Source of the DNA: Pseudomonas uvaldensis
GTDB lineage: Bacteria > Pseudomonadota > Gammaproteobacteria > Pseudomonadales > Pseudomonadaceae
Length of the DNA stretch: 64,000 nucleotides
Reading direction: 5' to 3'
Assembly (NCBI RefSeq): GCF_021271205.1
Contig: NZ_JAIWKS010000006.1
Span: 186,001 to 250,000 of the forward strand
Each line of letters starts with the position of its first letter. Positions within the stretch are counted from its first letter, which is position 1. The notes under the pieces were generated by a model. That model ran no database searches and was not told the DNA's origin. It worked only from the letters and a program-made list of their open reading frames with translations. Positions 13,679 to 28,497 of the stretch are shown here, one piece after another. The position numbers were made by a program, and so were the translations under genes.

Positions 13679-15043
13679 TCAACCCAGGAGTTCGCGTAAC
13701 ACCTGGGCAAACGCCCGGGCGCTTTCCTCTTCCCCGGCATGCCGTCCGTCGCATACCACCCACTGCCCGCCGACCATCACGTCGCGCACCTGGCGATCCC
13801 CGCCGGCAAACAGCCAACGATTGAGAATTCCATCGCCACTTGCCGTCGCCAGGTACGGGTCGTTGCCATCGAGCACCAGCCAGTCGGCGCGTTTGCCGAC
13901 GCCGAGTCCGCCGACCGGTTGGCCGAGGGCTTGGGCACCGCCCTCCAGGGCGGCATCGAACAGGGTGCGGCCGACCATCGGTTGATCTGGCCGATATAAG
14001 CGGTTGCGTCGCTGATCCCGCAGGCGCTGGCCGTATTCCAGCCACCGCAGCTCTTCCACCACGCTCAACGACACATGACTGTCGGAGCCGATACCCAGGC
14101 GTCCGCCCTGGGCCAGGAAATCCACCGCCGGGAAGATGCCGTCGCCAAGGTTGGCTTCAGTCGTGAGGCACAGACCGGCAATCGCCCGGCTTCTGGCCAT
14201 GAGGCTGACTTCACGAGCGTCGGCATGGGTGGCATGCACCAGGCACCAACGCTGATCGACGTCGACGTTTTCGTATAACCATTGCAGCGGACGGGCGCCG
14301 CTCCAGCTCAAGCAGTCGTCGACTTCCTTCTGTTGTTCGGCAATGTGGATGTGCACCGGGCAATCGCGGTCGCTCGCCGTCAAAACCTCATGGATTTGCC
14401 CAGGTGTTACGGCGCGCAGGGAATGGAAGCACAGCCCAAGGGCCTGGTTCGGCCGTCCAGCCAGAAGGGGCTGCAAGCGCGACTGAAGCGACAGATAGTT
14501 CTCGGTGCTGTTGATGAAACGTCGTTGTCCGTCATTCGGCGCCTGGCCACCAAAACCGGAGTGGCTATAGAGCACCGGCAGCAGCGTCAGGCCGATACCG
14601 GCGGTGCTGGCCGCCTGGCTGATGCGCAGCGCCAGTTCCGCGGGGTCGGCGTAAGGCGTGCCGTCGGTATCGTGATGCACGTAATGAAATTCGGCGACCG
14701 AGGTGTAACCGGCCTTGAGCATTTCGATGTACAGCTGTCGGGCAATGGTGCCGAGCTGGTCCGGACTGATTTTTCCGACGAGGCGATACATCAGGTCGCG
14801 CCAGGTCCAGAAACTGTCGTTGGGGTTGCCCGCGACTTCCGCCAGCCCGGCCATGGCCCGCTGGAATGCATGGGAATGCAGGTTCGGCATGCCCGGCAAG
14901 AGCGGCCCCTTCAGCCGTTCGGCGCCGTCTGCGTGGGAATCGGCCTGGACACGAGTCAGAACGCCGTTGGCGTCGACCTCAAGACGTACATCATTGGCCC
15001 ATCCACTAGGCAGCAGCGCGCGTTCGGCAAAAAAAGCGGGCAT
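13679..15043 (-). CDS. hutF: Formimidoylglutamate deiminase
   Basis: Converts N-formimino-L-glutamate to N-formyl-L-glutamate plus ammonia, the step that distinguishes the five-enzyme Pseudomonas histidine pathway. 454 residues, amidohydrolase superfamily: metal-binding HxH in PNLHSHAFQRAM (His56, His58), CPVHIHIAEQ, HATHAD and GSDSHVSLSV carry the remaining ligands. The start is ATG at 15043, since GAGG lies 7 nt upstream; a TTG two codons earlier is possible. Divergent from hutC, with a HutC-like palindrome between them. HutG, the next enzyme, is encoded 13 kb away at the end of the hut run. Confidence 0.95.
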   Translation of the reverse strand: MPAFFAERALLPSGWANDVRLEVDANGVLTRVQADSHADGAERLKGPLLPGMPNLHSHAFQRAMAGLAEVAGNPNDSFWTWRDLMYRLVGKISPDQLGTIARQLYIEMLKAGYTSVAEFHYVHHDTDGTPYADPAELALRISQAASTAGIGLTLLPVLYSHSGFGGQAPNDGQRRFINSTENYLSLQSRLQPLLAGRPNQALGLCFHSLRAVTPGQIHEVLTASDRDCPVHIHIAEQQKEVDDCLSWSGARPLQWLYENVDVDQRWCLVHATHADAREVSLMARSRAIAGLCLTTEANLGDGIFPAVDFLAQGGRLGIGSDSHVSLSVVEELRWLEYGQRLRDQRRNRLYRPDQPMVGRTLFDAALEGGAQALGQPVGGLGVGKRADWLVLDGNDPYLATASGDGILNRWLFAGGDRQVRDVMVGGQWVVCDGRHAGEEESARAFAQVLRELLG

Positions 15044-15066
15044 GGTCAAACCTCATCGTGTGTAAT

Positions 15067-15084
15067 TTGTATATACATATACAG
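15067..15084. promoter_or_regulatory. HutC-like operator between hutF and hutC
   Basis: TTGTATATACATATACAG contains the perfect palindrome TGTATATACA (15068-15077), similar to the CTTGTATGTACAAG-type HutC site and to the copy upstream of hutU. Its position between divergent hutF and hutC fits repression of hutF and autoregulation of hutC, relieved by urocanate. Confidence 0.65.
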
Positions 15085-15147
15085 ACGTTTGCCTGGCCGG
15101 TAAACTCCGGCAAGCTAGCAATCTTATTTGCAGAACAGGGAACCGCC

Positions 15148-15897
15148 GTGCCGACTCCGCCTGCCAAACCACCAATCGCCGCGAACATGGGTGACAGTCC
15201 GGCGCCCTTGTACGCCCGCGTCAAACAAATGATTACCCAGCAGATCGACAGTGGAAACTGGCCGCCGCATTACCGCGTGCCATCGGAAAGCGAATTGGTC
15301 AGCCAGTTGGGCTTCAGTCGCATGACCATCAACCGCGCCCTGCGGGAAATGACTGCCGATGGCCTGCTGGTGCGCATGCAGGGTGTCGGTACGTTCGTGG
15401 CCGAACCCAAGAGCCAATCCGCGCTATTCGAAGTGCATAACATCGCCGATGAGATCGCCTCCCGTGGCCATCGCCACACATGCAAGGTCATTACCCTGGA
15501 AGAGGAGGCCGCAGGTTCCGAGCGCGCCCTGGCCCTGGAAATGCGCGAAGGCCAGAAGGTGTTCCACTCTCTGATCGTGCATTTCGAGAACGACATTCCG
15601 GTGCAGATCGAGGACCGTTTCGTCAACGCACTGGTGGCGCCGGATTACCTCAAGCAGGATTTCACCCTGCAAACGCCTTATGCCTATCTGAACCAGGTGG
15701 CGCCATTGACCGAAGGCGAACATGTGGTGGAAGCGATTCTCGCCGAGCCGAGCGAATGCAAGCTGCTGCAAATCGAGCAGGGCGAGCCATGCCTGTTGAT
15801 CCGCCGTCGTACCTGGTCCGGGCGCCAGCCGGTAACTGCCGCGCGCCTGATCCATCCCGGTTCGCGTCATAGCCTGGAGGGTCGGTTTCACAAATGA
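15148..15897 (+). CDS. hutC: Histidine utilisation repressor (GntR family, HutC)
   Basis: 249 residues. N-terminal GntR winged helix (LYARVKQMITQQIDSGNW, then PSESELVSQLGFSRMTINRA with the recognition helix) and a C-terminal UTRA ligand-binding domain (about 100-249), which in HutC binds urocanate. It represses the hut genes until urocanate accumulates. Start: GTG at 15148 with AGGGA 7 nt upstream gives the family length; the frame is open back to 15058 but that part would read through the operator. The stop overlaps the hutD start (ATGA). Confidence 0.95.
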   Translation: MPTPPAKPPIAANMGDSPAPLYARVKQMITQQIDSGNWPPHYRVPSESELVSQLGFSRMTINRALREMTADGLLVRMQGVGTFVAEPKSQSALFEVHNIADEIASRGHRHTCKVITLEEEAAGSERALALEMREGQKVFHSLIVHFENDIPVQIEDRFVNALVAPDYLKQDFTLQTPYAYLNQVAPLTEGEHVVEAILAEPSECKLLQIEQGEPCLLIRRRTWSGRQPVTAARLIHPGSRHSLEGRFHK

Positions 15898-16463
15898 GTC
15901 AGATGAATATTCTGCGCGCCGCGAATTACCCTCGCATGCCATGGAAGAACGGCGGCGGCAGCACCGAAGAAATCACCCGTGATGCTGGCACTGGCCTGGA
16001 TGGTTTCGGCTGGCGCTTGTCGATTGCCGATATCGGTGAGTCGGGTGGTTTTTCCACTTTCGCCGGTTATGAACGGGTCATCAGCGTGTTGCAGGGCGAC
16101 GGCATGACGCTCAATGTCGATGGTCGAACCACGCGACCGCTGCATCCGCTGGACGCCTTTTCATTCAGCGGCGAGAGCCATGTGCATTGCACGCTGCTGG
16201 GCGGGCCGATTCGCGACTTCAACCTGATCTATGCACCGCAACGTTACCGCGCGCGGGTGCAATGGATGAAGAATGAGCAGCGTTTTTTCAGCGAGGCGGG
16301 GACGGTGCTGGTATTCAGTGCGGATCCGGCGTTGTGCGTCAGGGTCGACGAATTCGACGCGGCACTGGGCCTCTACGATTGTCTGCAATTGAGCGGTAAC
16401 ACCGGACTGCTGGAAATTTCCACGAGCGGGCAGTGCTGCGTGATTGAACTGACAGCCCATTGA
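15894..16463 (+). CDS. hutD: HutD family protein
   Basis: 189 residues, cupin-like fold of the HutD family. Recognised by YPRMPWKNGGGSTEEITRD near the N-terminus and FSTFAGYERVISVLQGDGM in the middle. Genetic work in Pseudomonas fluorescens suggests HutD limits or buffers hut expression, possibly by binding a hut intermediate, but the mechanism is not firmly settled. It overlaps hutC by four bases and is followed by a 376-nt gap before hutU that holds the hutU promoter. Confidence 0.92.
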   Translation: MSQMNILRAANYPRMPWKNGGGSTEEITRDAGTGLDGFGWRLSIADIGESGGFSTFAGYERVISVLQGDGMTLNVDGRTTRPLHPLDAFSFSGESHVHCTLLGGPIRDFNLIYAPQRYRARVQWMKNEQRFFSEAGTVLVFSADPALCVRVDEFDAALGLYDCLQLSGNTGLLEISTSGQCCVIELTAH

Positions 16464-16839: not shown

Positions 16840-18528
16840 GTGACCGACGCTACCCGCAAACCTGAAAAATACCGTGACGTTGAAATCCGTGCCCCTCGCG
16901 GTAATACGCTGACCGCCAAGAGCTGGCTGACCGAAGCGCCGCTGCGCATGTTGATGAACAACCTCGACCCGGAAGTCGCCGAAAATCCCAAGGAACTGGT
17001 GGTCTACGGTGGCATTGGCCGTGCGGCACGCAACTGGGAGTGCTACGACAAGATCGTCGAAAGCCTGACCAACCTGAACGACGATGAAACCCTGCTGGTG
17101 CAATCCGGCAAGCCGGTAGGCGTCTTCAAGACCCACAGCAACGCGCCTCGCGTCCTGATCGCCAACTCCAACCTGGTCCCTCACTGGGCCACCTGGGAGC
17201 ACTTCAACGAGCTCGACGCCAAGGGCCTGGCCATGTACGGCCAGATGACCGCCGGCAGCTGGATCTACATCGGCAGCCAGGGCATCGTCCAGGGCACCTA
17301 CGAAACCTTCGTCGAAGCCGGTCGCCAGCATTATGACTCCAACCTCAAGGGCCGCTGGGTGCTGACCGCCGGCCTTGGCGGCATGGGTGGTGCACAGCCG
17401 CTGGCCGCCACGCTGGCCGGCGCTTGCTCGCTGAACATCGAGTGCCAGCAGGTGAGTATCGATTTCCGCCTCAAGACCCGTTATGTCGACGAGCAGGCCA
17501 CCGACCTGGACGACGCACTGGCCCGTATCGAGAAATACACCGCTGAGGGCAAGGCGATTTCCATTGCGCTCTGTGGCAACGCCGCCGAAATCCTCCCGGA
17601 ATTGGTCCGTCGCGGTGTGCGTCCGGACATGGTCACCGACCAGACTAGCGCCCACGATCCGCTCAACGGTTACCTGCCGGCCGGCTGGACCTGGGAAGAA
17701 TACCGTGCCCGCGCCAAGACCGAACCGGCTGCCGTGGTGAAAGCCGCCAAGCAATCCATGGCCGTCCACGTGAAAGCCATGCTGGCCTTTCAGAAAATGG
17801 GCGTTCCGACCTTTGACTATGGCAATAACATCCGCCAAATGGCCCAGGAAGAGGGCGTTGAAAACGCCTTCGACTTCCCGGGTTTCGTTCCGGCCTACAT
17901 CCGTCCGCTGTTCTGCCGTGGCATCGGCCCGTTCCGCTGGGCTGCGCTGTCGGGCGACCCGCAGGACATCTACAAGACCGACGCCAAGGTCAAGGCACTG
18001 ATCCCCGACGACGCCCACCTGCACAACTGGCTGGACATGGCGCGCGAGCGCATCAGCTTCCAGGGCCTGCCGGCACGGATCTGCTGGGTCGGCCTGGGCC
18101 AGCGCGCCAAGCTGGGCCTGGCGTTCAACGAAATGGTGCGCAGCGGTGAGCTGTCGGCCCCGATCGTGATTGGTCGCGATCACCTGGACTCCGGTTCCGT
18201 GGCGAGCCCCAACCGCGAAACCGAATCCATGCAGGACGGTTCCGATGCGGTCTCCGATTGGCCGTTGCTCAACGCCTTGCTCAACACTGCCAGCGGCGCG
18301 ACCTGGGTGTCGCTGCATCACGGTGGCGGCGTCGGCATGGGCTTCTCCCAACACTCGGGCATGGTGATCGTCTGCGACGGTACCGACGAAGCCGCCGAAC
18401 GTATTGCTCGCGTACTGCACAACGACCCGGGCACCGGGGTGATGCGCCATGCCGATGCCGGTTACCAGATCGCCATCGATTGCGCCAAGGAACAGGGGCT
18501 GAACCTGCCGATGATCACTGGCAAATAA
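16840..18528 (+). CDS. hutU: Urocanate hydratase
   Basis: Converts urocanate to imidazolone propionate using tightly bound NAD+ as electrophile; second step of histidine degradation, cytoplasmic. 562 residues, the family length. Signatures visible: [13 protein letters not shown] near the N-terminus, [20 protein letters not shown] (NAD-binding loop), [17 protein letters not shown] with the family motif, and [10 protein letters not shown] with its conserved cysteine. Start is GTG at 16840 with a GAGGAG site just upstream. Preceded by the sigma-54/HutC control region and followed by a REP pair before the permease gene. Confidence 0.97.
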
Positions 18529-18675: not shown

Positions 18676-20142
18676 ATGGCTGTCAGTAGCACACGCGCAA
18701 GCAGCAAGCCGTTGATCGAGAAACGTTCGATCGACTACATCCCGGAAGCGGAGCGACATGGCCGGCTGTTGAGCCAGTTCACCCTTTGGATGGGGGCCAA
18801 CCTGCAAATCACGGCCATTGTCACCGGTGCGTTGGCGGTGGTGCTGGGCGGCGATGTGTTCTGGTCGTTGATCGGTTTGCTGATCGGCCAAGTGCTCGGT
18901 GGTGGCGTCATGGCATTGCATGCGGCGCAAGGCCCCAAGCTTGGCCTGCCGCAGATGATCTCCAGTCGGGTGCAGTTCGGTGTGTATGGCGCGGCCATCC
19001 CGATCGTGCTGGTGTGCCTGATGTACCTGGGTTTCACCGCCACGGGCACCGTGCTTTCCGGCCAGGCGCTGGGGCAGTTGTTTGGCGTCAGCGACAGTGT
19101 CGGCATCTTCATTTTCGCCAGCGTCATCGTACTGGTCACGGTGCTCGGGTATCGGGTGATTCACTTCATCGGCCGTGTCGCCAGCCTCATTGGCGTGATT
19201 GCCTTTGTTTACCTGTTCGCTCGCCTGATCACTCAGGTGGACGTTGGCGCCCTGTTGCAAATCCGTCATTTCAGTTGGAGCAGCTTTTTGCTCGCGGTGT
19301 CGCTCGCGGCCTCCTGGCAGATCGCCTTCGGCCCCTATGTGGCGGACTACTCGCGTTACCTGCCGAGCAAGACGTCTTCGGTGAAAACCTTTTTTGCCGC
19401 AGGCGCAGGTTCAGTCATTGGCGCACAGGTGGCGATGATCCTCGGCGTGTTTGCCGCCGCCTCGGCCAACGGGCAGTTCGCCGGTCACGAAGTGGCCTAC
19501 ATCGTTGGCCTGGGCGGTACCGGCGCCACCGCTGCGCTGCTGTACTTCAGCATCGCGTTCGGCAAGGTCACGATTTCCACGCTGAACTCCTACGGCAGTT
19601 TCATGTGCATCGCGACCATCATCAGCGGCTTTCGTGGCCACCTGAACGTCACGCGCTTGCAGCGTCTGGTCTTCGTGCTGTTCATCGTCGGCGCCGCAAC
19701 CCTGATCGCGCTGCTCGGCCAGCACTCGTTCCTCGGTGCGTTCAAGTCTTTCATCCTGTTTTTGCTGGCGTTCTTTACGCCTTGGAGCGCCATCAACCTG
19801 GTGGACTACTACTGCATCACTCGCGAGCGCTATGACGTACCGGCACTGGCTGATCCGAACGGTCGCTACGGTCGTTGGAACTTCCTCGGGATCAGTGTTT
19901 ATGCGCTGGGTGTACTGATTCAACTGCCGTTCATCGCCACCAAGTTCTATACCGGTCCGCTGGTGGCCGCGATGGGGGGCGTGGACATTTCCTGGATCAT
20001 CGGTCTGGTGGTCCCGGCGGTGTTGTATTACGTCGCAGCCAGGAAGTGGCACAGCGCTGTACCCGATCGATTGATCCTGCCGGTCGAGCAGGACGCGGTT
20101 GACGCACAACCGAGCAGGGCGGGCCGCATCCAAGCGGTCTGA
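18676..20142 (+). CDS. NCS1-family permease, probable urocanate transporter of the hut locus
   Basis: 488 residues with about 12 hydrophobic helices, and the NCS1 (purine-cytosine permease, CodB-like) signatures: an N-terminal amphipathic stretch ERSIDYIPEAERHG, FTLWMGANLQITAIVTGALA in helix 1, and FGPYVADYSRYLPSKTSS. Located between hutU and the HutXWV importer. In P. fluorescens a CodB-like permease in the hut cluster has been described as a urocanate transporter (HutTu); this gene sits in the equivalent position, so that role is inferred from context. A cytosine/allantoin substrate cannot be excluded from sequence alone. Confidence 0.8.
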   Translation: MAVSSTRASSKPLIEKRSIDYIPEAERHGRLLSQFTLWMGANLQITAIVTGALAVVLGGDVFWSLIGLLIGQVLGGGVMALHAAQGPKLGLPQMISSRVQFGVYGAAIPIVLVCLMYLGFTATGTVLSGQALGQLFGVSDSVGIFIFASVIVLVTVLGYRVIHFIGRVASLIGVIAFVYLFARLITQVDVGALLQIRHFSWSSFLLAVSLAASWQIAFGPYVADYSRYLPSKTSSVKTFFAAGAGSVIGAQVAMILGVFAAASANGQFAGHEVAYIVGLGGTGATAALLYFSIAFGKVTISTLNSYGSFMCIATIISGFRGHLNVTRLQRLVFVLFIVGAATLIALLGQHSFLGAFKSFILFLLAFFTPWSAINLVDYYCITRERYDVPALADPNGRYGRWNFLGISVYALGVLIQLPFIATKFYTGPLVAAMGGVDISWIIGLVVPAVLYYVAARKWHSAVPDRLILPVEQDAVDAQPSRAGRIQAV

Positions 20143-20212: not shown

Positions 20213-21181
20213 ATGAAATCGAACAAGACCCTGCTGACCACCTTGCTTTCCATGGGCCTGTTGGCCAGTGCTGGCGCCACGCAAGCGGCCGGTTGGTGCG
20301 AGTCGGGCAAACCGGTGAAGTTCGCCGGTCTGAACTGGGAAAGCGGCATGCTGCTGACCGACGTCCTGCAAGTGGTGTTGGAAAAAGGCTACGGCTGCAA
20401 AACCGACAGCTTGCCGGGTAACTCCATTACCATGGAAAACGCCCTGAGCAGCAATGACATTCAGGTATTCGCCGAAGAATGGGTGGGCCGTAGCGAGGTC
20501 TGGAACAAGGCCGAGAAGGCTGGCAAGGTGGTCGGCGTCGGCGCCCCGGTGGTGGGTGCCATCGAAGGCTGGTACGTGCCACGGTATGTGGTCGAAGGCG
20601 ATGCCAAGCGCAAGCTCGAAGCCAAGGCGCCAGGCCTGAAGAACATCGCCGATCTGGGCCAGTACGCCGCCGTGTTCAAGGACCCGGAAGAGCCGTCCAA
20701 GGGCCGCTTCTACAACTGCCCGGCCGGTTGGACCTGCGAGCTGGACAACAGCGAAATGCTCAAGAGCTACGGCTTGGAAAAAACCTACACCAACTTCCGT
20801 CCAGGCACCGGCCCGGCCTTGGATGCCGCAGTGTTGTCCAGCTATAAGCGTGGCGAGCCGATCCTGTTCTACTACTGGTCGCCAACGCCACTGATGGGCC
20901 AGGTGGACCTGGTGAAGCTGGAAGAAAAGCCGGGCGTGGACAAGAGCGTGACCATCAAGGTCGGTCTGTCCAAGACCTTCCATGACGAGGCTCCGGAGCT
21001 GGTGGCGGTGCTGGAAAAGGTCAACCTGCCCATCGATATCCTGAACCAGAACCTGGGCCGCATGGCCAAAGAGCGGATCGAGTCGCCGAAACTGGCGAAG
21101 ATCTTTCTGAAGGAACATCCTGAAGTCTGGCATGCCTGGGTCAGCGAAGACGCTGCCAGGAAAATCGACGCGGCTCTGTAG
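20213..21181 (+). CDS. hutX: Histidine ABC importer, periplasmic binding protein (ProX-like)
   Basis: 322 residues. Signal peptide (KTLLTTLLSMGLLASAGATQ, cleaved near QAA), then a type II binding-protein fold of the OpuAC/ProX family: GLNWESGMLLTDVLQVVLEKG at the start of the mature protein and NLPIDILNQNLGRMAKERIE near the end. Members next to hutW and hutV bind L-histidine in rhizobia and pseudomonads. First gene of a binding protein-permease-ATPase set. Confidence 0.88.
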   Translation: MKSNKTLLTTLLSMGLLASAGATQAAGWCESGKPVKFAGLNWESGMLLTDVLQVVLEKGYGCKTDSLPGNSITMENALSSNDIQVFAEEWVGRSEVWNKAEKAGKVVGVGAPVVGAIEGWYVPRYVVEGDAKRKLEAKAPGLKNIADLGQYAAVFKDPEEPSKGRFYNCPAGWTCELDNSEMLKSYGLEKTYTNFRPGTGPALDAAVLSSYKRGEPILFYYWSPTPLMGQVDLVKLEEKPGVDKSVTIKVGLSKTFHDEAPELVAVLEKVNLPIDILNQNLGRMAKERIESPKLAKIFLKEHPEVWHAWVSEDAARKIDAAL

Positions 21182-21252
21182 GTCGAGCATTGCCCGGCCA
21201 ACCCGAGGGCTGGCCGGGACGTTCACCGCATCCACCTGATCGAGAGTCTCTT

Positions 21253-22104
21253 ATGTTTCCCGAAAGCTTTACCTTTTCCATCGCCGACTGGGTCAACGGT
21301 TGGGTCGACGCCCTGGTGACAAATTATGGCGATGTGTTCCGGCACATCTCCGACACCTTGCTGTGGGCCATCGTCAATCTTGAAGGCTTGCTGCGCCTGG
21401 CGCCCTGGTGGCTGATGCTGGCGATTGTCGGTGGCGTTGCCTGGCACGCGACCCGCAAGGTCGTGGCCACGGCGGTGATCGTCGGCCTGCTGTTCCTGGT
21501 CGGCGCGGTGGGTCTGTGGGACAAACTGATGCAGACCCTCGCCCTGATGCTGGTGGCGACGCTGATCTCGGTATTGATCGGCATCCCGTTGGGCATTCTG
21601 TCGGCGCGCAGCAATCGCCTGCGTTCGGTGCTGATGCCGCTGTTGGACATCATGCAGACCATGCCGAGCTTCGTGTACCTGATTCCGGTGTTGATGCTGT
21701 TCGGCCTGGGCAAGGTCCCGGCGATTTTCGCCACGGTGATCTACGCCGCGCCGCCACTGATTCGCCTCACCGACCTGGGCATTCGCCAGGTGGACGGCGA
21801 AGTGATGGAAGCCATCAACGCCTTCGGCGCCAACCGCTGGCAGCAGCTGTTCGGCGTGCAACTGCCCCTGGCCCTGCCGAGCATCATGGCCGGGATCAAC
21901 CAGACCACCATGATGGCCCTGTCGATGGTGGTCATCGCCTCGATGATCGGCGCCCGTGGCCTGGGTGAAGACGTGCTGGTGGGCATCCAGACCCTCAACG
22001 TCGGACGCGGCCTGGAAGCCGGTCTGGCTATCGTGATTCTCGCTGTGGTCATCGACCGCATTACCCAGGCCTATGGTCGTCCTCGGCATGAGGTGAGCAA
22101 ATGA
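21253..22104 (+). CDS. hutW: Histidine ABC importer, permease
   Basis: 283 residues, ProW-like inner-membrane permease with about six hydrophobic helices. The cytoplasmic coupling loop [26 protein letters not shown] is the EAA motif that contacts the ATPase. Start set at 21253 ([17 protein letters not shown]), the first position that gives the family N-terminus; the frame is open further back but there is no ribosome site or homologous segment. Overlaps hutV by four bases. Confidence 0.9.
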
Positions 22105-22931
22105 GCAACGCAGCCATCAGCAAGATCGAAGTCAAAAACGTCTTCAAGATTTTTGGTAACCGCTCCACCGAAGCCCTGGAGCTGATCCGCCGGAACAAGA
22201 CCAAGGACCAGGTCCTGGCCGAAACCGGTTGCGTGGTCGGTGTGAACGACTTGTCGCTGAGCATCGGCACTGGCGAGATCTTTGTGATCATGGGCTTGTC
22301 CGGGTCCGGTAAGTCCACTCTGGTGCGGCACTTCAACCGGCTGATCGACCCCACCAGCGGGGTGATCCTGGTGGACGGCGAAGACATCCTGCAACTGGAC
22401 ATGGACGCCTTGCGTGAATTCCGCCGGCACAAGATCAGCATGGTGTTCCAGAGCTTCGGCCTGCTGCCCCACAAGAACGTGCTGGACAACGTCGCCTACG
22501 GCTTGAAGGTGCGCGGCGAGAGCAAGCAGGTATGCGCCGAGCGCGCGCTGCACTGGATCAACACCGTGGGCCTGAAAGGCTACGAGAACAAATACCCGCA
22601 CCAGCTCTCCGGTGGCATGCGCCAGCGCGTGGGCCTGGCCCGGGCCCTGGCGGCGGACACCGACATCATCCTGATGGACGAAGCCTTCAGCGCCCTCGAC
22701 CCGCTGATCCGCGCAGAGATGCAGGACCAGTTGCTGGAGCTGCAGAAGACCCTGCACAAGACCATCGTCTTCATCACCCACGACCTCGACGAGGCCGTGC
22801 GCATCGGCAACCGCATTGCGATTCTCAAGGACGGCAAGCTGATCCAGGTCGGCACGCCAAGAGAGATCCTGCACTCGCCGGCGGATGAGTATGTCGATCG
22901 GTTCGTGCAACGCAGGGCTGCGGTGGTTTAG
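22101..22931 (+). CDS. hutV: Histidine ABC importer, ATPase
   Basis: 276 residues, ProV/OpuAA-like. Walker [11 protein letters not shown] at about residues 65-74, Q-loop [11 protein letters not shown], signature [20 protein letters not shown], Walker [15 protein letters not shown] and the H-loop in FITHDLDEA. It lacks the paired CBS domains of osmoregulated ProV proteins, which fits a non-osmotic histidine importer. Preceded by hutW with ATGA overlap; a REP pair lies downstream. Confidence 0.92.
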
Positions 22932-22956: not shown

Positions 22957-23022
22957 CTTCGCGAGCAAGCCCGCTCCCACAGGGGACCACATTCCAATGT
23001 GGGAGCGGGCTTGCTCGCGAAG
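22957..23022. repeat. REP pair, tail-to-tail, between hutV and the first hutH
   Basis: TTCGCGAGCAAGCCCGCTCCCACA then, 17 nt later, TGTGGGAGCGGGCTTGCTCGCGAA: the same motif as elsewhere, but with the two copies in the opposite relative orientation and a short spacer. Confidence 0.9.
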
Positions 23023-23071
23023 GCGTCAGTAAAGCTGCATCAATGTTCAGGTTGTAAGCATGAGGTTAAAG

Positions 23072-24595
23072 ATGTCCCAGGCTGAAAAAATCATCATCGC
23101 CGACACCCCGCTGCGCTGGCAGGACGTAGTCGCCGTCGCCCGCTTCGGGGCCGAGCTCGAGCTGTCGGCACAGGCCTGGGCGCGGATCGACAATGCCCAG
23201 GCCATCGTGCAGCGCATCGTTGAAAGCGGCGAGCGCGCCTATGGCGTCAACACTGGCCTGGGGGCTTTGTGCAATGTCTCGCTCAAGGACGAACAACTCA
23301 GCCAGCTGTCGCGCAACACGCTGCTTAGCCACGCCTGCGGGGTAGGTGCGCCGTTGGCCGATGAACAGACCCGGGCGATTCTCTGCGCCGCCATTCTCAA
23401 CTACAGCCAGGGCAAGTCCGGCATTCATCGGCGGGTGGTCGAGGCGTTGCTGGCGCTGCTCAATCGCGGCATCACCCCGCAAGTGCCGTCTCAGGGCTCG
23501 GTGGGTTACCTGACCCATATGGCCCACATCAGCATTGCGCTGCTGGGTGTCGGCCAGGTGAGCTATCGCGGGCAAATCGTCCCGGCGCAACAAGCCCTGG
23601 CCGCGGAAGGTCTGCAACCGGTGCAACTGGGCGCCAAGGACGGTTTGTGCCTGGTCAACGGCACGCCTTGCATGACCGGGCTCAGTTGCCTGGCCCTGGC
23701 CGATGCGACGCGACTGGTGCAATGGGCCGATGTGATCGGTGCCATGAGCTTCGAGGCCCAGCGTGGCCAGATCGCGGCGTTCGACGCCGAGATCATCGCC
23801 CTCAAGCCGCACCCTGGCATGCAACAGGTCGGAGTCAATCTGCGGGCCTTGCTCGACGGCAGCGAAGTCATTGCTTCGAGCCTGGGCATTCGCACCCAGG
23901 ATGCGTTGAGCATTCGCTCGATTCCCCAGGTGCACGGCGCCGCTCGTGATCAGTTGGCCCATGCGCGGCAACAGATCGAAACCGAACTCAACGCCACCAC
24001 CGACAACCCGCTGTTGCTCGGCACGCCGGACAATTTCCGGGTGATGTCCCAGGCCAATCCCCACGGCCAATCGGTGGCGATGGCTGCCGACCTGCTGACG
24101 ATTGCCATGGCGGAAATCGGCTCCATCGCCGAGCGCCGGCTTGACCGGCTGATCAACCCACACGTCAGCGGACTGCCGGCGTTCCTGGTGGCCAATCCTG
24201 GCGTGAACTCGGGGATGATGATCGTGCAGTATGTCGCCGCCTCGCTGTGCGCGGAAAATCGCCAGTTGGCGCAGCCGGCGGTAGTCGACAACTTCGTCAC
24301 CTCGGGCTTGCAGGAAGACCACCTGAGCATGGGCACCAATGCCGCGCTGAAACTGCACCGGGCGCTGGAAAACTGTACGCAGATCCTCTCCATCGAGTAC
24401 CTGCTGGCGGCCCAGGCCTTTGAATTTCTCAAGACGCAACGCTTCGGTGCCGGCACCGACGTTGCCTGGAAGCTGCTGCGCGGGCGCGTCCCGGCCTATG
24501 ACCAGGATCGTTGGCTGGCTCCGGATATCGCCAGCGCCGCCGCGCTGCTGAAAGACCCGGCCGTGCTGCACAACGCCTTACCGAATTTGAATTGA
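23072..24595 (+). CDS. hutH1: HutH paralogue lacking the MIO (Ala-Ser-Gly) triad
   Basis: 507 residues, aromatic amino-acid lyase fold along its whole length: GERAYGVNTGLGALC, LLSHACGVG, LVNGTPCMTG, TTDNPLL, LTIAMAEIGSIAERRLDRL and TSGLQEDHLSMG all align with histidase. However, at the MIO position the sequence reads GSVG-YLTHMAH (Gly145/Tyr146, codons at 23504-23509) where a histidase has [14 protein letters not shown]: the three residues that cyclise into the MIO electrophile are deleted in frame. The active-site tyrosine of the QDPYSLR motif is also replaced (QDALSIR). The active-site Tyr of YGxNTG, the Asn of LxNGT and the Glu of QEDH remain. Start 23072 is chosen because GAGG lies 6 nt upstream. 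Unlikely to deaminate histidine; it may bind hut ligands, regulate or oligomerise with the true HutH, or catalyse something else. Confidence 0.9.
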   Translation: MSQAEKIIIADTPLRWQDVVAVARFGAELELSAQAWARIDNAQAIVQRIVESGERAYGVNTGLGALCNVSLKDEQLSQLSRNTLLSHACGVGAPLADEQTRAILCAAILNYSQGKSGIHRRVVEALLALLNRGITPQVPSQGSVGYLTHMAHISIALLGVGQVSYRGQIVPAQQALAAEGLQPVQLGAKDGLCLVNGTPCMTGLSCLALADATRLVQWADVIGAMSFEAQRGQIAAFDAEIIALKPHPGMQQVGVNLRALLDGSEVIASSLGIRTQDALSIRSIPQVHGAARDQLAHARQQIETELNATTDNPLLLGTPDNFRVMSQANPHGQSVAMAADLLTIAMAEIGSIAERRLDRLINPHVSGLPAFLVANPGVNSGMMIVQYVAASLCAENRQLAQPAVVDNFVTSGLQEDHLSMGTNAALKLHRALENCTQILSIEYLLAAQAFEFLKTQRFGAGTDVAWKLLRGRVPAYDQDRWLAPDIASAAALLKDPAVLHNALPNLN

Positions 24596-24711: not shown

Positions 24712-26244
24712 ATGACAGCTTTGAACCTGATCCCCGGCCAACTGAGCCTGGCTCAGTTGCGTGAGATCTATCAGCACCCGGTGACCTTGAGCCTCGATGC
24801 CAGCGCTTCGGCGCAGATCGAAGCCAGTGTCGCGTGCGTGGAGCAGATCCTCGCCGAGAATCGCACCGCCTATGGCATCAACACCGGTTTTGGTCTGCTG
24901 GCCTCGACCCGCATCGCCAGCGAAGACCTGGAAAATCTGCAACGCTCCCTGGTGTTGTCCCATGCCGCCGGCGTGGGCGAGCCGATCAGCGATGCGCTGG
25001 TGCGGTTGATCATGGTGCTCAAGGTCAACAGTCTGAGCCGGGGTTTTTCCGGCATCCGCCGGCAGGTAATCGATGCGCTGATCGCGCTGGTCAATGCCGA
25101 GGTTTATCCGCACATTCCGCTCAAGGGCTCGGTGGGTGCATCCGGCGACCTGGCGCCGCTGGCCCACATGTCCCTGGTGTTGCTGGGCGAGGGCAAGGCT
25201 CGCTACAAAGGTGAATGGCTGCCGGCCGTCGAGGCGCTGAAAGTCGCTGGCCTCGCACCGCTGACGCTGGCGGCCAAAGAGGGCCTGGCACTGCTCAACG
25301 GCACCCAGGTGTCCACCGCGTTCGCCCTGCGCGGCCTGTTCGAAGGCGAGGACCTGTTCGCCGGCGCCCTGGCCCTGGGCAGTCTGACGGTGGAAGCGGT
25401 GCTGGGTTCGCGTTCGCCATTCGATGCGCGCATCCACGCTGCCCGCGGTCAGAAAGGCCAGATCGACGCCGCCGCCGCGTATCGCGACCTGTTGGGCGAG
25501 CGCAGCGAAGTCTCCGACTCGCACCAGAACTGCGACAAGGTCCAGGACCCATACTCGTTGCGCTGCCAGCCGCAAGTGATGGGCGCCTGCCTGACCCAGT
25601 TCCGCCAGGCCGCCGAAGTTCTGGTGATCGAAGCCAACGCCGTGTCGGATAACCCGTTGGTGTTCGCCGCCGAAGGCGACGTGATTTCCGGTGGCAACTT
25701 CCACGCCGAGCCGGTGGCGATGGCTGCCGACAACATGGCCCTGGCGATTGCCGAAATCGGCTCCCTGAGCGAGCGCCGCATCTCGTTGATGATGGACAAG
25801 CATATGTCGCAACTGCCGCCATTCCTGGTGGGCAATGGCGGGGTGAACTCAGGCTTCATGATCGCCCAGGTCACTGCTGCCGCGCTGGCCAGTGAGAACA
25901 AGGCACTGGCCCACCCTCATTCGGTGGACAGTCTGCCGACCTCGGCCAACCAGGAAGACCACGTCTCCATGGCCCCGGCCGCTGGCAAGCGCCTGTGGGA
26001 AATGGCGGAAAACACCCGTGGGATCCTGGCGGTGGAATGGCTGGCGGCGTGCCAGGGACTGGACCTGCGCGGCGGCTTGAAAACCTCTGCGAAGCTGGAG
26101 CAGGCCCGCAGCCTGCTGCGCAAGGCGGTGCCGTTTTATGAGAAAGACCGCTTCTTTGCGCCGGACATCAATGCCGCCAGCGAGTTATTGGCGAGCCGGT
26201 GCCTGAACGAGCTGGTCACAGCACAATTGTTGCCGAGCCTGTAA
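24712..26244 (+). CDS. hutH: Histidine ammonia-lyase (histidase)
   Basis: First enzyme of histidine degradation: removes ammonia from L-histidine to give trans-urocanate. 510 residues, the family length. The MIO-forming triad Ala143-Ser144-Gly145 is intact in [15 protein letters not shown], and the catalytic tyrosine (Tyr54, YGINTGFG), the Asn in [21 protein letters not shown] and QEDHVSM are all present. It is the functional counterpart to the MIO-less paralogue immediately upstream. A CA-rich motif ahead of its ribosome site suggests Hfq/Crc catabolite control. Confidence 0.97.
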
Positions 26245-26251
26245 CGGCCTC

Positions 26252-26449
26252 ATCGCGAGCAGGCTCGCTCCCACAAGGATTCGATGTTGAGCCCCATTTT
26301 GATTGACACCAGAGAGCCCTGTGGGAGCGGGCTTGCTCGCGAAAGCGCAGGGTCAGCTTGCACCAATGTCGTCTGTGCCACCGTCTTCGCGAGCAAGCCC
26401 GCTCCCACAGGTTCCGGGCGGTTCTTGTGGGAGCGAGCCTGCTCGCGAT
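26252..26449. repeat. Nested REP cluster (one inverted pair inside another) between hutH and hutI
   Basis: Outer pair: ATCGCGAGCAGGCTCGCTCC at 26252 and its inverse TGTGGGAGCGAGCCTGCTCGCGAT ending at 26449 (AGCGAGCCTGCTCGC variant). Inner pair: the common AGCGGGCTTGCTCGC variant at 26320-26343 and 26386-26409. So two different REP variants form concentric inverted repeats over 198 bp. Confidence 0.9.
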
Positions 26450-26479
26450 TCGATTTTGAATGAAACGAGGAGACTCGGG

Positions 26480-27682
26480 ATGAAAACCCTCTGGCAGAAC
26501 TGCCACGCCGCCACCATGGCCCAGGGCGTCTACTCGATCATCGAAGACGCCGCCATTGTCACCCAGGGCGAACATATCCAATGGATCGGCCCCCGTGCCC
26601 AGTTGCCGGCCGGCGACTACCCGGCAGTCCACGACCTCAAGGGCGCCTGGGTCACGCCGGGACTGATCGACTGCCACACCCACACGGTGTTCGGCGGCAA
26701 TCGCAGCGGTGAGTTCGAGCAGCGCCTGCAAGGTGTCAGCTACGCCGAAATTGCGGCCGCCGGCGGGGGCATCGCCAGCACCGTGCGCGCTACCCGCGCC
26801 GCCAGCGAAGACGAGCTGTTCGCCAGCGCCGCCAGACGCCTGAAGAGCCTGATGCACGATGGCGTAACCACCGTAGAAATCAAGTCCGGCTACGGTTTGA
26901 ACCTGGTCAATGAGCGCAAGATGTTGCGGGTGATCCGCCGCCTCGGCGCCGAGCTGCCGGTCAGCGTACGCAGCACTTGCCTGGCGGCTCATGCGTTGCC
27001 GCCGGAATACAACGAGCGCGCCGACGATTACATCGAACATATCTGCACCGAGATGCTCCCGGCCCTGGCGGCCGAGGGGCTGGTGGACGCTGTAGATGCT
27101 TTTTGTGAGTACCTGGCGTTCTCCCCGGCACAGGTCGAGCGAGTATTCGTCACCGCGCAACGACTGGGCCTACCGGTGAAGCTGCACGCCGAGCAACTGT
27201 CGTCGCTGCATGGCTCAAGCCTGGCCGCCCGTTATCAGGCGCTGTCTGCCGATCATCTGGAATTCATGACCGAGGATGACGTCCAGGCCATGGCAGAAGC
27301 CGGCACGGTGGCCGTGTTATTGCCGGGGGCGTTTTATTTCCTGCGCGAAACCCAACTGCCGCCGATGGACGCCTTGCGCAAGCACGGCGTGAAAATCGCC
27401 GTGGCCAGCGACCTCAACCCCGGCACCTCGCCGGCGCTGTCGTTGCGCTTGATGCTGAACATGGCCTGCACTTGTTTGCGCATGACCCCGGAAGAAGCCC
27501 TCGCCGGGGTGACGATTCATGCCGCGCAGGCCTTGGGCATGGCCCGGACCCACGGTTCGCTGGAGGCCGGCAAGGTGGCGGACTTCGTTGCCTGGCACAT
27601 CGACCGCCCCGCCGACCTTGCGTACTGGCTCGGCGGCGAACTGGAAAAACGCGTCGTGCGTCACGGCGTTGAACTCGATTGA
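26480..27682 (+). CDS. hutI: Imidazolonepropionase
   Basis: Third step of the pathway: hydrolyses 4-imidazolone-5-propionate to N-formimino-L-glutamate. 400 residues, amidohydrolase fold with metal ligands in [18 protein letters not shown] (His66, His68), KLHAEQ and a late [10 protein letters not shown]. The start at 26480 has GAGGAG upstream and follows the REP cluster; reading further upstream would pass through the REP sequences, so the longer frame is not real. Confidence 0.97.
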
Positions 27683-27693
27683 GGAGAACGGTT

Positions 27694-28497
27694 TTGGAAA
27701 AGGTCCTGAATTTCAAGCAAGGGCGCGTGCCGCTGCTGATCAGCATGCCTCACGCGGGCCTGCGCCTGACTCCGGCGGTACAGGCCGGGTTGATTCCCGA
27801 GGCCCAGAGCCTGCCGGACACCGACTGGCACATCCCCCGGCTCTATGACTTCGCCGCCGAGCTGGGTGCCAGTACGTTGTCCGCCGAGTATTCCCGGTTC
27901 GTCGTCGACCTGAACCGCCCATCGGACGACAAGCCGATGTACGTCGGCGCCACCACCGGTCTGTACCCGGCGACCCTTTTCAACGGCGTGCCGTTGTTTC
28001 GCGAAGGGCTGGAACCGTCAGCCGAAGAGCGGGCGACCTATTTGCAGCAGATCTGGATGCCATATCACCAGGCCTTGCAACAGGAACTGGCGCGACTCAG
28101 GGCCGAGTTCGGCTATGCGTTGCTGTTCGATGCCCACTCGATCCGCTCGGTGATCCCCCATCTGTTCGAGGGCAAGCTGCCGGACTTCAACCTCGGTACC
28201 TTCAACGGCGCCGCCTGCGACCCGTTGCTTGCCGGCCAGCTCGAAGCTATCTGCGCCCGCCACGACGCGTACACCCACGTGCTCAATGGACGGTTCAAGG
28301 GCGGACACATCACGCGGCATTACGGCAACCCCGCCGAACACATCCATGCGGTGCAACTGGAACTGTGCCAGAGCACCTACATGGAAGAGTTCGAACCGTT
28401 CAACTACCGGCCCGACCTGGCTGAGCCGACCCAGGTGGTGCTCAGGGAACTGCTTGAGGGCTTGTTGGCGTGGGGATGCCAGGCTTACAAGCGCTAA
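27694..28497 (+). CDS. hutG: N-formylglutamate deformylase
   Basis: Last step: hydrolyses N-formyl-L-glutamate to formate and glutamate, using the product of HutF. 267 residues of the FGase family: PLLISMPHAGLRLTP, DWHIPRLYDF, EYSRFVVDLNRPSDD, ATTGLYPATLF, FDAHSIRS and the late EHIHAVQLELCQSTYMEE. The start is TTG at 27694, with GAGGAG at 27681-27686 in proper spacing and giving the usual MEKVLxFKQG N-terminus; it lies 11 nt after hutI. Confidence 0.94.
   Translation: MEKVLNFKQGRVPLLISMPHAGLRLTPAVQAGLIPEAQSLPDTDWHIPRLYDFAAELGASTLSAEYSRFVVDLNRPSDDKPMYVGATTGLYPATLFNGVPLFREGLEPSAEERATYLQQIWMPYHQALQQELARLRAEFGYALLFDAHSIRSVIPHLFEGKLPDFNLGTFNGAACDPLLAGQLEAICARHDAYTHVLNGRFKGGHITRHYGNPAEHIHAVQLELCQSTYMEEFEPFNYRPDLAEPTQVVLRELLEGLLAWGCQAYKR

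Follow-up and report, generated by a model that had tools for sequence, protein, structure and literature searches.

What does a histidase-like protein do when it lacks the electrophilic 4-methylideneimidazole-5-one (MIO) group of its family? The question is raised by hutH1 (positions 23072-24595), the first of two adjacent genes of the histidine ammonia-lyase (HAL) family in the histidine utilization (hut) locus of Pseudomonas uvaldensis, and was addressed by a computational analysis of a stretch of 64,000 nucleotides from this genome (assembly GCF_021271205.1, contig NZ_JAIWKS010000006.1, positions 186,001 to 250,000 of the forward strand), hereafter called the window. As judged from sequence comparisons, HutH1 is very likely a MIO-free lyase forming urocanate from an activated histidine derivative, be it hercynine or another; in its specific form, the proposal that HutH1 is a MIO-free trimethylamine lyase which would convert hercynine to urocanate and trimethylamine is considered probable.

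The frame of hutH1 is open over its whole length and encodes 507 amino acids; an alternative in-frame ATG at 23060 would lengthen the protein by four residues. The initial annotation had described the product as a histidase homologue along its whole length, with the MIO triad deleted in frame between 23506 and 23507 and with Leu in place of the Tyr of QDPYSLR. All of this is borne out by the end-to-end alignment with the neighboring HutH2 (41% identity), the change at the MIO site being more exactly the replacement of ASGD by a single Tyr in the motif GSVGYLTHMAH, a net loss of three residues. The junction had been placed correctly (Gly145 codon, 23504-23506; Tyr146 codon, 23507-23509). The motif QDPYSLR of HutH2 corresponds to QDALSIR in HutH1, by which Tyr280 (P. 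putida numbering), a catalytic residue of histidase, is replaced by Leu.

Conservation of the deletion among relatives, which had been named as a point to check, was found throughout. A whole-protein search yielded close orthologues in 26 of 57 genomes (including that of the window) with 78-100% identity; the motif GSVGYLTHMAH was present in 26/26, and no internal stop was seen in any of them. Among 81 genomes of another family, a protein search yielded six HutH1 genes, with the same motif in 6/6. The exact codon motif of HutH1 occurred in 275 of 398 genomes of the genus, and the reversed pattern used as a control occurred in none of the genomes listed; a looser pattern applied to 369 genomes of the class gave two matches, one of them in the genome of the window and the other in a genome of the family to which the 81 genomes belong. 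Regarding the open reading frames (ORFs) picked by identity from all fetched loci, 133 distinct HutH1 sequences were obtained, of which 133 carry GSVGY (GSVGYLTHMAH in 132, GSVGYLSHMAH in one) and 133 carry QDALS, the Leu at the position of Tyr280 having been part of no search pattern. The initial annotation had held that homologues regularly containing ASG would make the deletion a local mutation or a sequencing error; ASG was found in 0/133. All 73 distinct HutH sequences picked in the same way carry ASGDL, and 72 carry QDPYS, no QD..S motif being read in the remaining one. (Note that many loci were fetched by motif; at the MIO site, the counts free of this bias are 26/26 and 6/6.)

The pairwise ratio of nonsynonymous to synonymous substitution rates (dN/dS) of hutH1 to ten relatives was 0.037-0.129, somewhat higher than that of hutH2 (0.015-0.064), and hutH1 is therefore under clear purifying selection. 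A local mutation or sequencing error was rejected on the grounds that the loss of MIO is common to all orthologues picked by identity, and a pseudogene on the grounds of the 26 stop-free orthologues and the dN/dS values. In genome G034 (L069:12662-14214(+)), the canonical hutH adjoining hutH1 is broken into two frames, with hutH1 intact. A scan of the named genomes of a species-level collection gave 570 related stretches, of which the best 80, confirmed with a halomonad sequence as query, form the set of named loci, so that proportions among them are not population frequencies. These 80 belong to Pseudomonas, Halomonas and its kin, Salinicola, Zobellella, Corticimicrobacter, Paracoccus, Brenneria, Prodigiosinella and Pantoea; besides about two thirds of the sampled Pseudomonas, HutH1 is scattered over alpha-, beta- and other gammaproteobacteria.

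The binding pocket of histidase is kept in HutH1. In an alignment of 116 HutH1 and 44 HutH rows, both sets gathered by motif, together with six ergothionase-like rows, His87, Asn196, Gln276, Arg282 and Glu415 were present in 116/116 HutH1 rows and Tyr57 and Gln414 in 115. Expressed in P. putida numbering, the histidase residues Tyr53, His83, Asn195, Gln277, Arg283 and Glu414, which bind the imidazole and the carboxylate, are kept in 115-116 of the 116 rows. The changed positions are Tyr280 (Leu in 116/116) and Phe329 (Pro in 115/116), in addition to Tyr146 at the MIO site, and Tyr387, present in 116/116, replaces a Val found in at least 95% of HutH. In a different alignment, ergothionase reads SSIGEGDITTLSH at the MIO site, without ASG, and all six ergothionase-like rows (ergothionase and five relatives) have Leu at the position of Tyr280. 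With its pocket kept and MIO and Tyr280 lost, HutH1 resembles histidase at the imidazole end and ergothionase at the end where MIO would act.

Histidase requires MIO to turn the amino group into a leaving group. A substrate with a quaternary ammonium, which leaves readily by itself, would make the electrophile dispensable, as in ergothionase. The assertion of the initial annotation that all known aromatic amino-acid lyases need MIO leaves out of account that a MIO-free trimethylamine lyase of the HAL fold is already known in ergothionase, which is described as devoid of MIO in a 2026 paper (PMC13405746). Action of HutH1 as a MIO-free histidase on L-histidine itself was also considered, a reading suggested by its acceptance in the NCBIfam histidase model TIGR01225 and by genomes G789, G840, G812 and G867, where hut genes were found without canonical HutH and HutH1 might stand in for it. 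It is very unlikely nonetheless: MIO and Tyr280 are both absent in 133/133 sequences, a further histidase would often be redundant, with a HutH motif beside HutH1 within the fetched locus in 21 of the 26 close relatives and HutH in 36 of the 80 named loci, and replacement of the MIO Ser by Ala is reported to cost histidase more than 1000-fold in activity (PMC3903478).

The neighboring genes are the most telling evidence on the role of HutH1. In the named loci, the gene directly upstream encodes HutV in 62/80 and a BCCT-family transporter in 13/80, together 75/80; it is HutU in L188, and none of the three in L159, L178, L186 and L191. The fetched flanks, of at most 6 kb, contain no other hut gene in 21/80 loci, and canonical HutH is absent from them in 44/80 and present in 36/80. 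In the Pseudomonas loci L067 (contig of L167) and L074 (contig of L172), hutXWV-hutH1 forms an isolated cluster, with hutX flanked by a divergent LysR-type gene (Pfam was applied to the L074 copy only), and in L121, L125 and L126, from two Halomonas and one Paracoccus, the flank of a BCCT-HutH1 pair is devoid of further hut genes. The upstream gene of L121 has its best NCBIfam match in the choline-metabolism regulator GbdR, with a score of 309 bits, below the cutoff of 480. The BCCT assignment was confirmed by Pfam for both transporters examined (L063, L125). HutX belongs to the OpuAC family of binding proteins according to Pfam, its best match to solved betaine binders reaching only 91 bits.

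Among the 398 genomes of the genus, HutX and HutH1 occurred together in 261, HutH1 only in 14, HutX only in three and neither in 120, with E values up to 1e-150 taken as presence of HutX; given the shared ancestry of these genomes, the Fisher test value for this association is not to be taken as a true probability. One of the 14 is G023 (L066), whose hut operon contains HutW, HutV and HutH1, with no HutX found. Regarding the three genomes with HutX only, a protein search found no HutH1 in G064 and G269, where urocanase was not found either, and gave only other HAL types in G293 (1,200 contigs). A MIO-free histidase pocket, a betaine-class importer and urocanase together suggest hercynine as the compound taken in and trimethylamine and urocanate as the products.

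Context and pocket would equally suit a MIO-free lyase which makes urocanate from a different histidine derivative, such as a partly methylated histidine, an oxidation product of ergothioneine or a conjugate, and family-3 transporters beside two enterobacterial copies hint at a substrate that may fall outside the classic betaines. Such a substrate is rather unlikely: two unrelated betaine-class carriers (OpuAC-type and BCCT) stand directly upstream in 75/80 loci, which favors a quaternary amine, and among imidazole compounds the natural one of this kind is hercynine.

Urocanase, the enzyme expected to consume the product, was detected in 271 of the 275 genomes with HutH1, compared with 94 of the 123 without it, so that the distribution of HutH1 is nested almost completely within that of urocanase (thirteen of the 33 genomes without a urocanase match were identified by absence from the match list); it was also present in 9/9 chosen HutH1 genomes. 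The four HutH1 genomes without a match are G002, where HutU is seen as fragments, including one at the end of a contig, G243, which is 73% complete, and G116 and G187, which are in 140 and 290 contigs. Among related irregularities, only several separate partial pieces of hutU were seen in G029:C1, and in G008 a partial hutU at the hutX locus and other pieces lie beside a full copy, possibly as a result of rearrangement or insertion.

Canonical HutH was not found in G789, G840, G812 and G867, all of which contain urocanase and carry HutH1 within their hut cluster. G867 (Corticimicrobacter populi, L122) is the cleanest of these, HutH1 being its sole HAL-family match; Salinicola corii is another species where canonical HutH was searched for and not found. 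In each of the remaining three genomes, an ASG-bearing protein of the L077 clade is present as well, and an ergothionase-like protein is encoded beside the hut genes of G789. HutH1 is the most evident source of urocanate in these histidase-less genomes other than uptake, and may be the sole entry point to the hut pathway in some genomes. The occurrence of HutH1 with urocanase and without canonical HutH speaks for a urocanate-making lyase and against a partner or regulator of HutH. Genome G828 has two hut clusters, one (L106) with HutF, HutU, HutH1 and HutI, the other (L107/L108) with canonical HutH, HutF, HutU, HutI, HutG and an ergothionase-like gene.

These data also bear on a catalytically dead HutH1 that binds histidine or urocanate and acts as partner or regulator. 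The absence of MIO and the position of hutH2 next to hutH1 in the window would fit this, and hutH1 of P. fluorescens SBW25 is reportedly dispensable for growth on histidine. The reading is distinctly improbable, as 44/80 loci lack HutH in the flank, four genomes lack a canonical HutH match, BCCT-HutH1 pairs occur away from hut genes, the pocket residues and dN/dS are enzyme-like, and a Pfam scan of HutH1 found no DNA-binding domain. Of the three roles listed in the initial annotation, a MIO-independent reaction is the one favored here; a role as HutH subunit was rejected as a general one in view of the 44 flanks and four genomes, and a ligand-binding regulator could still apply within Pseudomonas but leaves the BCCT-HutH1 pairs unexplained.

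An AlphaFold model of HutH1 (mean predicted local distance difference test score, pLDDT, 91) has the fold of histidase and ergothionase. The structure matches were 7tqr (Z 46.7, root mean square deviation (rmsd) 1.9 over 479 residues), HutH 1b8f (Z 45.1, rmsd 2.1 over 498) and ergothionase 6s7j_F (Z 44.7, rmsd 2.5 over 492), where rows with Z less than 1 apart count as tied; Foldseek concurs on the fold. The pLDDT drops to 72 in block 141-150, which contains the motif, and to 65 and 63 within 401-420. The active site of HAL is assembled from several subunits and the model is a monomer, which, together with these lower values, limits what it can say on the geometry of Tyr146 and Tyr387. Matches to fumarases (Z ~13, rmsd ~4.2 over ~280 residues), possibly reflecting just a common helical arrangement, could be taken to indicate unrelated chemistry of the fumarase/HAL fold, such as hydration or isomerization. 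Such chemistry is very unlikely in a protein which keeps the imidazole pocket of histidase and is linked to urocanase-bearing genomes.

In a phylogenetic tree of 51 rows, built from ORFs passing a length and motif filter (L030 and L087 yielded no row), all 31 MIO-less rows fell on one side of a branch with support 97/91, which suggests that MIO may have been lost once in the HAL fold. A second tree of 45 rows was calculated without the distant or long-branched 6s7j, L084, L078, L080 and L029 and the duplicate L064. HutH1 formed its own clade in both trees (100/99), and the ergothionase-like proteins formed a clade beside it (100/99 with 51 rows, 100/100 with 45). A placement of HutH1 inside the ergothionase clade was rejected on account of these separate, well-supported clades. 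The L077-type HAL paralogue keeps ASG and forms a clade distinct from HutH1; the ~32% paralogues of G789, G840 and G812 are of the L077 type.

We infer from these data a pathway in which hercynine (Nalpha-trimethylated histidine, histidine betaine), a betaine made by fungi and actinobacteria, would enter the cell through HutXWV (Pseudomonas) or a BCCT carrier (halomonads). HutH1 would hold it in its histidase-like imidazole and carboxylate pocket and eliminate trimethylamine to leave urocanate, and the latter would be degraded by HutU, HutI and HutF/HutG. Binding of the trimethylammonium end, or an action on it, may fall to Tyr387 and to the invariant Tyr146 that stands in place of ASGD.

Several observations weigh against this pathway. 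At the residue level, the position of Tyr387 is taken by Lys or Arg in all six ergothionase-like rows, Asp follows the shortened motif in all six, and Ser or Ala occurs at the position of Asn196; the catalytic machinery of HutH1 and ergothionase is therefore not identical. HutH1 scores nearer to histidases (339 bits) than to ergothionase (212 bits), and TIGR01225 takes it barely above cutoff (547.3 against 539.15). The split of the MIO-less rows has support of 93/87 in the 45-row tree, under the star threshold of the program, which also warned of long branches in the 51-row tree; the root is undefined. Regarding the transporters, 14 of the 275 HutH1 genomes lack HutX at the threshold used, and HutH1 of Prodigiosinella (L178) and Pantoea (L186) stands beside family-3 binding proteins nearest to binders of lysine/arginine/ornithine and of histidine. 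In P. fluorescens and rhizobia, HutXWV transports histidine, and in the latter also betaines; its linkage to HutH1 could accordingly reflect histidine, and the transporter class is no proof of a betaine substrate. Finally, the L077-type protein of G789, G840 and G812 may be the urocanate maker in these genomes.

The order of the hut genes in the window is hutF on the minus strand, followed by hutC-hutD-hutU-permease-hutX-hutW-hutV-hutH1-hutH2-hutI-hutG (Table 1). The operon position of the cytosine/purine-type permease suggests uptake of histidine or urocanate.

Table 1. Features of the hut locus in the window (positions counted from its first nucleotide).
Feature	Position	Strand	Basis
hutF, formiminoglutamate deiminase	13679..15049	-	ORF; name from family knowledge
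hutC, GntR-type repressor of hut genes	15058..15897	+	ORF; name from family knowledge
hutD	15894..16463	+	ORF; name from family knowledge
hutU, urocanase	16840..18528	+	ORF; name from family knowledge and operon order
cytosine/purine-type permease (Transp_cyt_pur)	18676..20142	+	Pfam
hutX, OpuAC-type (glycine-betaine class) substrate-binding protein	20213..21181	+	Pfam; linkage to hutH1
hutW, ATP-binding cassette (ABC) permease, start codon unrefined	21190..22104	+	ORF, Pfam
hutV, ABC ATPase, directly upstream of hutH1	22101..22931	+	ORF, Pfam
hutH1, MIO-less HAL homologue, proposed hercynine trimethylamine-lyase	23072..24595	+	ORF, alignment, profiles
Gly145-Tyr146 codons, single Tyr at the ASGD (MIO) site of HutH	23504..23509	+	alignment
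hutH2, canonical histidase	24712..26244	+	ORF, alignment
hutI region, imidazolonepropionase; listed ORF begins upstream of likely start	26303..27682	+	family knowledge, operon order
hutG, N-formylglutamate deformylase	27679..28497	+	family knowledge, operon order

A perfect inverted repeat (22957-23022, with 25-base arms at 22957-22981 and 22998-23022) lies between hutV and hutH1 and resembles the repetitive extragenic palindromic (REP) elements of Pseudomonas. Outside the window, the same genome contains a third HAL-family gene with ASG intact (G000:C56:281895-283262(-); type L077:5234-6778(-)).

Other HAL-family proteins without ASG were also encountered. A paralogue in genome G006 (L078:4674-6215(-)), which reads GSVGYLAVEGH and keeps Tyr280 and Phe329, could represent a third MIO-free type; the closest gene for a permease has sub-cutoff matches to ABC permeases for histidine/arginine. 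Ergothionase-like proteins with GSLGESDLAPLAH occur in Pseudomonas (L083:4902-6377(+), L084:4939-6348(+), L085:4474-5904(-)), each with a HutX-like protein (52-56% identity) encoded within a few kb, in L083 with a Pfam OpuAC match. In two Salinicola genomes (L105:5510-7045(-), L108:3782-5317(+)), an ergothionase-like gene with GSLGAADLAQLAQ lies directly downstream of hutG; an OpuAC-type ABC system and a gene of the ornithine-cyclodeaminase family come next in L105, and this group is likely an ergothioneine catabolic cluster.

HutH1 is filed as an aromatic amino-acid lyase by Pfam (PF00221, 559 bits) and NCBIfam. The NCBIfam histidase model accepts a protein without the defining cofactor, so that histidine metabolism has probably been misinterpreted in numerous genomes. 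On balance, HutH1 appears to be an unrecognized hercynine trimethylamine-lyase, a major member of a MIO-free branch shared with ergothionase and part of an add-on module with HutXWV or BCCT. If so, it would allow bacteria to channel hercynine into central metabolism, trimethylamine being released, account for the presence of two hutH genes in Pseudomonas, suggest a natural substrate for HutXWV and constitute a second natural example, after ergothionase, of the MIO enzyme fold working without MIO. No title on a hercynine lyase or on loss of MIO in Pseudomonas HutH1, and no second widespread MIO-free clade with a histidase-like pocket, was found among the literature matches listed, by which subscription journals were mostly uncovered. 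Gene PA5093, which we take to be the HAL-like gene of the P. aeruginosa locus and whose published hutG label we assume may be a slip, was not used as evidence. In a 2025 paper, PA5093 is labelled hutG, and a hutG deletion mutant is reported to grow poorly on histidine and urocanate, the identity of the deleted gene being ambiguous in the text consulted (PMC12772324).

Among known systems, the arrangement in Pseudomonas sp. J380 is similar, with two adjacent hutH genes in the hut operon; in the accessible part of its description both copies are called histidine ammonia-lyase and the absence of MIO is unmentioned (PMC8069873). On the transport side, the HutX system resembles EgtU in belonging to the quaternary-amine ABC class, and EgtU is described as importing ergothioneine, a histidine betaine, though annotated as an osmoprotectant system (PMC9732360), whereas for HutX the ligand side is a predicted class only, with modest similarity to solved betaine binders. 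HutH (PDB 1b8f) shares with HutH1 the fold, 39-41% identity and the imidazole and carboxylate residues; unlike HutH, HutH1 has no ASG, no Tyr280 and Pro for Phe329, and its usual neighbor is a transporter rather than HutH. The ergothionase-like proteins differ from HutH1 in forming a separate clade with a GEGD or GESD/GAAD motif containing Asp, in keeping Phe330 where HutH1 has Pro, and in an identity of 28-29% in structure alignments, whereas ergothionase of Treponema denticola (PDB 6s7j/6s7q) has in common with HutH1 the HAL fold, the absence of MIO and Leu at the position of Tyr280.

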